From positions 124,001 through 188,000 of the forward strand of contig NZ_OY764015.1 of assembly GCF_963667775.1 (NCBI RefSeq): DNA of 64,000 nucleotides, given 5' to 3'. The position numbers and the translations under genes are program-made. Below the pieces are notes generated by a model, which searched no databases, was not told the DNA's origin, and saw only the letters and a list, made by a program, of their open reading frames with translations. Positions within the stretch are counted from its first letter, which is position 1. Every line of letters starts with the position of its first letter. Origin of the DNA: an uncultured Trichococcus sp. Its GTDB lineage: Bacteria; Bacillota; Bacilli; Lactobacillales; Aerococcaceae. This document shows positions 1,522 to 3,334 of this stretch, piece after piece.

Positions 1522-1550
1522 TTGACATATACGCTGTATTTGTATAGAAT
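1522..1550 (+). promoter_or_regulatory. Promoter of polyamine operon leader
   Basis: TTGACA (1522-1527), a 17-base spacer and TAGAAT (1545-1550). The predicted start near 1557 lies just before the structured leader. Confidence 0.8.
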
Positions 1551-1572: not shown

Positions 1573-1757
1573 CTCTTATTAATAGCCGTTGAGACGAGGG
1601 GTCGAAGATACGGTGGCAAACCAATCAATCTAATTTTATTTTCAAGGATTGATATTGGGTGCCCAACCTGAGCGTAGGATTATCCAAGTCCTATGAGCAA
1701 TAAGAGGAAAAGCAGCTGATAGATATCGAAGCTTTCCTTTGGTTGGAGAGCTTTTTT
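1573..1757 (+). ncRNA. S-box-like (SAM-clan) riboswitch with terminator
   Basis: P1 is CTCTTATT (1573-1580) with AATAAGAG (1699-1706). P2 is CCGT/ACGG (1586-1589/1610-1613), capped by GAC/GTC with a GAGGG loop. The loop AGG (1597-1599) can pair with CCT (1667-1669), like the S-box pseudoknot. The P3 arm opens with GGCAAACC (1615-1622) and closes with GGGTGCCC (1657-1664), matching the GGCAACC and GGTGCC strands of the S-box SAM pocket. P4 is TAGGA/TCCTA (1675-1679/1689-1693). The 3' strand of P1 with the following GGAAAAGC can pair with GCTTTCC (1731-1737), which otherwise forms a terminator with GGAGAGC (1745-1751) plus seven T. So a folded aptamer should favour termination. Secondary structure is read directly; ligand SAM is inferred from the core motifs. 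The J1/2 and P2 sequences differ from the textbook S-box, so a variant class is possible. Confidence 0.6.
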
Positions 1758-1792
1758 TATGCCCATTTTTTATATCAAAGGGGGAAATCTAT

Positions 1793-3334
1793 TTGGCTGA
1801 AAAGGTTTTATTCAATTCAGACACTTATTTGGAAGGTCATTCCGACAAAATTACTTACCAAATTTCTAACGTTAAAGCAAAAAATATTACACATATCAAA
1901 ATGCCGCTTTTCGAAGCGCTTGTTAAATATGCGAAACAGGACGTTACGCCTTTCGATGTCCCTGGACATAAAATGGGTGCGCAGATGACGCCATTCAAGA
2001 TGGCGGTCGGTGATATGACGATGCAGATGGATGTAAACTCCATGAAAGAATTGGACTTGTTGAGCCATCCGCAATTTGTCATAAAAGAAGCACAGGAATT
2101 GGCTGCAAAAGCATACAATGCCGATCAGGCCTTTTTCCTGGTGAACGGTACTACTGTAGGCATCCAAGCGATGATCATGAGCGTTGTTGGGCCGAATGAT
2201 TCCATCTTGGTTCCCCGCAACTGCCATAAATCAGTGATGAGCGGGTTGATCCTGAGCGGCGCAAAGCCGATCTTCATCCAGCCCGAAATGGATTTGGCCT
2301 TCGGGATTTCCCACGGCATCTCCGTGGAACGCATCATCAAAGGCTTGGATGAAAATCCTCAAGCGAAAGCTCTTCTGGTCACTTATCCGACTTATTTCGG
2401 ATCTTTGAACGATCTGGAAACAATCTGTGATATCGCGCATGAACGCGGTGTCGTGGTCATCGTCGACAGTGCGCATGGCGCGCATTTGCCGTTCATGCCC
2501 GGAAAAATGAAGGATCCGATGAAAGCCGGAGCCGATGCGGTGACTTATTCCATGCATAAAACCGGCGGATCCTTGACGCAGAGTTCCTTGATGGTGATGC
2601 AAGGGGAGCGCATTTCCGCAACAAAATTACAAAAAGTACTGAACATGCTGCAATCGACAAGCGCAAACTACTTGCTGATGAGCTCCATAGACGCCGCACG
2701 CAGCGAGTTGGCGATGTACGGCAAAGACCGCTACAAAAAACTGCGCCCGATCGTCAGTGAAGCGATCGAAGCAATCGAGGCATTCGGCGATTACGAAGTG
2801 TTGAAAGCCGGCTACATCAAAGACAAATTCGACCAGACTTATGACTGGACAAAATTGGTGATCCGCGTCAATGACATCGGCCTTACGGGCTTCGAAGTCT
2901 ACACGATCTTGAAGCAAGAATACGGCATCCAAATGGAATTGGCTGAAGGCTACGTCGTGATGGCGGTCATCAGCACCGCCGACACACGCGAATCGATCGG
3001 CCGACTAGTCGACGCCTTGATGGATGTCCGCAGACGCTACAAAAAAGCGAGCCAACACTTCGATGCGCATGTGATGACTTGCAGCATCAACGAATTGGCC
3101 TGCAGCCCGCGTGATGCCTTCTATGCCGATAATGAAGTGGTCGGTATCGATGACGCGATCGGCCGCATCAGCGCCGATTCGATCATGATCTACCCGCCAG
3201 GAATTCCGTTGATCATCCCTGGTGAAGTGATCTCCGAAGCGGTCGTGCAACATTACCATTACTACAATGAAACGTTGGGCAACGTCCTGACCGAGGAAAA
3301 GATGCCTCATCAGATCAAAGTCCTGAAAGACTGA
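1793..3334 (+). CDS. speA: Orn/Lys/Arg decarboxylase (SpeA-like)
   Basis: PLP-dependent basic amino-acid decarboxylase of the fold-I group, 513 residues. It probably makes agmatine from arginine (or cadaverine from lysine) as the first step toward polyamines. The N-terminal PFDVPGHKMG motif is characteristic of the family. SMHKTGGSLTQSS carries the PLP lysine, about K256, and VDSAHGAH the cofactor aspartate. The start is taken as TTG 1793, seven bases after the ribosome site AAAGGGGGA; a start at 1739 would overlap the terminator, and the internal ATG near 1901 has no ribosome site. The next gene encodes agmatinase 48 bases downstream, which favours arginine as substrate. Expression is probably controlled by the leader at 1573-1757. 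Arginine versus lysine cannot be settled from sequence. Confidence 0.85.
   Translation: MAEKVLFNSDTYLEGHSDKITYQISNVKAKNITHIKMPLFEALVKYAKQDVTPFDVPGHKMGAQMTPFKMAVGDMTMQMDVNSMKELDLLSHPQFVIKEAQELAAKAYNADQAFFLVNGTTVGIQAMIMSVVGPNDSILVPRNCHKSVMSGLILSGAKPIFIQPEMDLAFGISHGISVERIIKGLDENPQAKALLVTYPTYFGSLNDLETICDIAHERGVVVIVDSAHGAHLPFMPGKMKDPMKAGADAVTYSMHKTGGSLTQSSLMVMQGERISATKLQKVLNMLQSTSANYLLMSSIDAARSELAMYGKDRYKKLRPIVSEAIEAIEAFGDYEVLKAGYIKDKFDQTYDWTKLVIRVNDIGLTGFEVYTILKQEYGIQMELAEGYVVMAVISTADTRESIGRLVDALMDVRRRYKKASQHFDAHVMTCSINELACSPRDAFYADNEVVGIDDAIGRISADSIMIYPPGIPLIIPGEVISEAVVQHYHYYNETLGNVLTEEKMPHQIKVLKD

Follow-up and report, generated by a model that had tools for sequence, protein, structure and literature searches.

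The closest described RNAs are spermidine riboswitches, a class reported by Salvail, Balaji, Roth and Breaker (2023, Cell Reports, PMC10853860) with 13 variants of the SAM-I fold, among them elements from Trichococcus ilyis, T. flocculiformis (a 134-nt element) and Trichococcus sp. ES5. The leader of the T. ilyis gene named 'ldcC' is an OFF switch, in which spermidine causes early termination with a T50 of about 214 µM, and SAM, MTA and a decarboxylated-SAH analogue are inactive; the response was diminished or lost in the mutants M1–M5 of this leader. The T. ilyis leader was employed in termination and reporter assays, in which the reporter was regulated, and in-line probing was done on the RNA of Oceanobacillus damuensis (PMC10853860).

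We analysed a stretch of 64,000 nucleotides from an uncultured Trichococcus sp. (the window). Its aptamer matches that of T. ilyis everywhere except in distal P3. The features of the class, as given in PMC10853860, were found here as well: a SAM-I-like four-helix aptamer, a changed J1/2 and an altered P3 loop (judged against the legend of Figure 1), a terminator with OFF layout and an association with polyamine genes, all in the same genus. The gene name given there is ldcC, whereas the window carries a speA-like gene with a metK-like start, followed by an agmatinase gene; between the window RNA and the class as described there, we found no testable difference. Taken together, the comparison indicates that the element very probably fits the spermidine riboswitch class and is not a SAM sensor, in agreement with a suspicion in the preliminary description that it might be a variant with another ligand. 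Spermidine binding and switching are ascribed to the window RNA because it is near-identical to relatives assayed by others. The riboswitch itself is, by that paper, already known and tested from the same genus.

A search with the Rfam SAM riboswitch model RF00162, as proposed in the preliminary description, matched the element end to end on the forward strand with 44.8 bits (E 5.5e-07 for the window), against a gathering score of 44.4. Genome-wide, at E up to 10, this model gave two matches, the variant, 0.4 bits above the gathering score, and a canonical copy with 80.9 bits. The SAM-I-like fold described earlier held up, in that all pairings of P1 to P4 can form and L2 has the potential for a pseudoknot (Table 1). 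The leader was also predicted to fold more stably than its dinucleotide shuffles (z −2.83; 2 of 200 shuffles equally good). The riboswitch structure at 1573–1706 is real.

Table 1. Features of the riboswitch leader and the genes behind it, in window coordinates
Feature	Position	Strand	Basis
Sigma-70-type promoter-like site, TTGACA-17 nt-TAGAAT	1522..1550	+	11 of 12 consensus matches
Aptamer, very probable spermidine riboswitch (SAM-I fold variant)	1573..1706	+	RF00162 match; letter-identical in G010
P1 5′ strand	1573..1580	+	pairs with 1699–1706
J1/2 position 11, U (conserved G in SAM-I)	1583	+	aptamer alignment
P2 with internal loop, L2 GAGGG (1596–1600)	1586..1613	+	fold and alignment; possible pairings 1586–1589/1610–1613 and 1593–1595/1601–1603
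P3 with enlarged internal loop A47 A48 / G87 (1619–1620 / 1659)	1615..1663	+	strands GGCAAACC/GGGTGCC; possible pairings 1615–1618/1660–1663 and 1621–1630/1647–1658
J3/4 CCU, pairing potential with L2 AGG (1597–1599)	1667..1669	+	fold and alignment
P4	1673..1695	+	pairing 1673–1678/1690–1695
P1 3′ strand, common to antiterminator	1699..1706	+	fold
Antiterminator, 1699–1713 with 1731–1744, one A bulged in core	1699..1744	+	predicted duplex −11.4 kcal/mol
Intrinsic terminator, then T run	1728..1754	+	−13.1 kcal/mol
GGGGG ribosome binding site, 8 nt before TTG start	1780..1784	+	read from sequence
First 26 decarboxylase codons, metK-like	1793..1870	+	DNA match, weak PF00438
speA-like PLP decarboxylase, Orn/Lys/Arg family, 513 aa, TTG start	1793..3334	+	PF01276, 264 bits
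speB, agmatinase, 285 aa	3383..4240	+	TIGR01230, 291.4 bits (cut-off 174.3)

A terminator switch, as had been proposed, is present, the terminator competing with an antiterminator. Since the antiterminator occupies the 3′ strand of P1 as well as the terminator's left arm, the two states are mutually exclusive. Their predicted fold energies are close, with −55.2 when P1 was forced and −54.0 when the antiterminator core (1705–1713/1731–1738) was forced. Scanning the leader for terminators gave one hit compared with 0.4 in shuffles; the promoter scan is weak on its own, with one site found versus 1.5 in shuffles. By sequence and folding, we found the terminator/antiterminator arrangement of an OFF switch, as in the spermidine class. 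We hold with high confidence that the element is a spermidine OFF riboswitch on speA-speB, a metK-fused remnant of a longer operon, in a genome where spermidine is probably made by a route free of SAM. At low spermidine, the P1 3′ strand would pair with the terminator's left arm, letting transcription proceed into the genes; with spermidine bound, P1 would be held and the terminator would form, which would halt the production of agmatine and putrescine, from which spermidine is made.

Of 13 Trichococcus genomes, 11 gave a match to the variant, nine of them above the gathering score, and the two genomes lacking a match are 63% and 51% complete. Across the 11 leaders, two positions differ outside distal P3, both in G009, the genome remotest from that of the window (G000) within the genus. 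Between these two genomes, speA has a dS of about 2, with synonymous sites near saturation, and the aptamer shows one difference outside the distal part of P3. This near constancy bears on the idea that the element is a decayed S-box of a former metK gene that regulates nothing and is kept merely as a leader. The low Rfam score would fit such decay, and the metK-like start of the decarboxylase gene (see below) suggests that the leader came with metK; however, a nearly constant aptamer despite that speA divergence, the retention of both terminator and antiterminator, and the regulation of a reporter by the T. ilyis leader (PMC10853860) speak against it, and we regard it as extremely unlikely.

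Beyond the genus, we searched with a covariance model built from eight Trichococcus aptamers. Across the class, four of 398 genomes were matched, namely the window's own, G550, and two in which the match reads as an ordinary SAM-I element on metK. Within the Bacilli family of G550, 45 of 261 genomes were matched, of which 29 reached at least 85 bits and 16 scored 30–48 bits; two of the weaker matches (G399 and G745) were read by eye as ordinary SAM-I elements on metK, and all 16 were excluded from the counts. The 29 candidate members in a single family provide a larger comparative set for the change from a SAM pocket to a spermidine pocket, although some may be among the 13 variants of PMC10853860.

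The 29 strong family matches and the eight Trichococcus aptamers were fitted to the model as an alignment of 37 aptamers, 36 of them distinct. In this alignment, 94.6% of cells were paired and 15 of 35 pairs changed on both sides, compared with means of 85.0% and 10.9 pairs in shuffles and with 37.8–47.6% and 2–7 pairs in slid controls. The number of pair types was not above that of shuffles (171 of 500 as high). Covariation of the helices, a check on the proposed fold, was found for P2 (two of four outer pairs changed on both sides), P3 (10 of 14 pairs; 87.8% of cells paired) and P4 (three of six pairs; 100% of cells paired), but not for P1, in which six of eight pairs never vary and the closing pair is lost in seven of 36 sequences. 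Three middle pairs of P3 are broken in 14–15 of 36 sequences, and the J3/4 CCU is invariant in 37/37 aptamers. As the aptamer is nearly invariant within Trichococcus, the covariation signal comes from the other family and depends on a model-fitted alignment; Trichococcus alone was uninformative, with one pair changed on both sides and 54 of 500 shuffles as high.

Departures from the S-box consensus, as had been noticed earlier, were found at position 11 and in the P3 loop. The window element shares with SAM-I (S box, RF00162) the P1–P4 architecture, the L2–J3/4 pairing and the terminator layout, but G11 is replaced by U and the internal loop of P3 contains an extra A and an extra G. Position 11 is U in 36 of the 37 variant aptamers, A in one and G in none, and A47, A48 and G87 of the P3 loop are invariant in all 37. 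As a control, we used 30 canonical RF00162 loci, a set limited to fetched, high-scoring loci that were the best match per genome; position 11 is G in 29 of them, the G of the remaining one is displaced by an inserted base, and all 30 carry the P3 pocket strand GCAAC, where the window reads GGCAAACC instead. The window element reaches the gathering score of SAM-I, but lacks both G11 and GCAAC. In the solved SAM-I structure, the bases at these J1/2 and P3 positions contact SAM. The Figure 1 legend of PMC10853860 agrees with this role. One element outside the class (L047 83–182 in G038, 46.5 bits with RF00162) has A at position 11 together with an ordinary P3 with GCAAC, so a change of G11 alone is no proof; this element could be a degenerate copy or represent a different variant.

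These departures argue against the view that the element is an ordinary SAM-I riboswitch, sensing SAM as an indicator of polyamine synthesis. Its S-box-like fold and switch layout, and a score just above the RF00162 gathering score, would be compatible with such a sensor, and the preliminary description had inferred that the SAM level gates agmatine/putrescine synthesis. However, G11 is replaced and the P3 loop enlarged in 37/37 aptamers, no SpeD was found in 13 Trichococcus genomes, and the T. ilyis leader answers to spermidine and not to SAM or MTA (PMC10853860); the idea of gating by SAM was abandoned, and we consider an ordinary SAM-I riboswitch highly improbable here. The same paper states that the changed positions coordinate portions of SAM that are absent from MTA, which would fit a variant with MTA or decarboxylated SAM as its ligand. 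Yet MTA and an analogue of decarboxylated SAH (not decarboxylated SAM itself) were inactive there. Moreover, the window's genome contains no SpeD that we could find and no SpeE above the cut-off, so neither MTA nor decarboxylated SAM is expected by the usual route. A sensor of these compounds hardly comes into consideration, and a spermidine sensor is preferred.

Directly behind the switch lies a polyamine decarboxylase gene, as the preliminary description had it (Table 1). Its product would be an arginine decarboxylase, judging from the adjacent speB and the related operons, whereas PMC10853860 has lysine decarboxylase. A second decarboxylase of the Orn/Lys/Arg type, 32% identical over the matched stretch, lies elsewhere in the genome (G000:C1:349676-350299), and two decarboxylase matches were present in each of the 11 Trichococcus genomes drawn.

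The decarboxylase gene appears to begin with a scrap of metK left from a longer operon, for which DNA similarity and location are stronger evidence than the protein domain match. Aligned without gaps, the metK-like stretch is identical at 49–59 of 78 nt to 18 operon metK genes and at 36–51 to six other metK genes, one housekeeping metK (G088, 51/78) overlapping the low end of the operon range; none of 20000 codon shuffles reached the best metK match. TTG stands at the aligned start in 14 of the 18 operon metK genes, as in the window speA, and in none of the six others. At the protein level, the N-terminal SAM synthetase domain PF00438 matched positions 2–23 weakly (12.3 bits, E 0.56 genome-wide); a 60-residue piece gave 14.6 bits and E 0.049, an E value equalled by an unrelated family, and the whole decarboxylase protein gave no match to PF00438. 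The MetK-like start motif EGHxDK was present in 4/4 Trichococcus control loci and in none of 19 fetched Lactobacillales loci outside the genus. In 84 of 89 matching genomes outside Trichococcus, the alignment starts at query residue 27 or later, and the remaining five begin at residues 3, 5, 17, 22 and 24, three of them with stops read through; three of these five early starts are among the 19 loci checked for EGHxDK, with G039 and G202 outside that set. The gene now appears to use the ribosome binding site and TTG start of metK. Such a scrap explains how an S-box-type leader reached a polyamine gene.

Related operons were then compared at 21 of the 29 strong riboswitch matches. Behind the G550 riboswitch lie open frames that were taken to be metK, speA, speD, speE and speB; SpeD was identified by Pfam (148.2 bits) and the others were named by eye and by mutual similarity. 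The order metK-speA-speD-speE was found at 18 of the 21 loci, 15 of which also have speB; three loci, all from genus g221, have only speA-speB within the stretch fetched. By eye, these three trimmed loci retain a few bases resembling a metK start, and their speA has its own ATG. Trichococcus likewise has only speA and speB behind the switch, but with about 26 metK-like codons in frame with speA. The Trichococcus SpeA is 57–67% identical to the operon proteins (21 loci) and SpeB 72–80% (18 loci), compared with 41–43% for SpeA against eight Lactobacillales homologues of the 19 fetched. In a SpeA tree, whose only members without a riboswitch were these eight, the 32 riboswitch-linked sequences were split from them at 100/100, suggesting transfer between families; the fork joining Trichococcus to the nearest operon SpeAs has a support of 82/67. 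An old S-box lineage on speA in Lactobacillales was also considered and found unsupported, as the eight SpeA homologues compared are only 41–43% identical and EGHxDK was not found in the 19 fetched loci.

From these comparisons, we propose an ancestral operon of the form riboswitch-metK-speA-speD-speE-speB. In an ancestor of Trichococcus, all of metK except its first ~26 codons would have been removed, with the remaining piece joined in frame to speA, and both speD and speE would have disappeared; the direction of change, from full to trimmed, is inferred from parsimony. A single trimming event for Trichococcus and g221 is unsupported by the SpeA tree, in which the three trimmed loci group with the full operon of G877; the SpeB tree instead places Trichococcus beside g221 (83/89). 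It is likely that the three SAM-linked genes metK, speD and speE were stripped at least twice, each time in genomes with the NspC route, and that the switch derived from a SAM riboswitch was kept, the Trichococcus cut fusing 26 metK codons to the decarboxylase and so fossilising the origin of the leader at metK. The operon comparison suggests a regulator that outlived the pathway of its ancestor, which it could do because the end product, and not SAM, is read. A metK remnant, a trimmed operon or a SAM-free route behind this switch was not found in searches of open-licence papers; the passages of PMC10853860 examined are silent on a metK remnant, and the term 'n-terminal' is absent from its main text.

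The preliminary description had reasoned that SAM is the aminopropyl donor for spermidine, a rationale that fits this genome poorly. SpeD was above the cut-off in none of the 13 Trichococcus genomes, with one 12-bit match in G009, and the best SpeE match in the window's genome reached 16.7 bits against a cut-off of 22.9. In contrast, nspC was above the cut-off in 12 of the 13, the exception being a genome 51% complete. Beside nspC in the window's genome lies a saccharopine-dehydrogenase-like gene resembling carboxynorspermidine synthase (431.7 bits, cut-off 800). The lack of a SpeD match together with the presence of nspC indicates that spermidine in Trichococcus is probably made without SAM. 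The likely route, judged from gene content, leads from arginine through agmatine and putrescine to carboxyspermidine, with the saccharopine-dehydrogenase-like protein and NspC probably converting putrescine to spermidine with no need for SAM.

In the family of G550, nspC was above the cut-off in 10 of the 29 strong-match genomes. It was present with 3/3 trimmed versus 3/18 full operons (Fisher p 0.015, kinship ignored), and a rule that nspC presence means a trimmed operon fails on those three full operons. These are L141, L143 and L152, where no speB was found downstream of speE within the stretch; as their genomes hold both a full operon and nspC, both routes to spermidine may coexist.

Other SAM-linked elements were seen in the window's genome. 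One of its two metK genes is preceded by a SAM-III element (SMK box, RF01767; L052 1416–1491, C1 near 508300; 57.6 bits), which is likewise linked to SAM but belongs to a different Rfam family and a different locus; one genome thus contains three types of element, SAM-I, SAM-III and the spermidine variant. The second, diverged metK (L053 1489 onwards, C1:2960568) adjoins a radical-SAM-like protein and a small protein, which, at a guess by eye, is Memo/AmmeMemoRadiSam-like. The genome's single canonical SAM-I match (L050 1913–2023, C1:2840412-2840522) precedes a short open frame of unknown function, with no methionine gene closely behind by eye. Elsewhere, in two members of the family, G055 and G015 (L045 and L046), what seems to be the same 120-nt RF00162 match (52.6 bits) precedes a 139-aa frame of unknown function.
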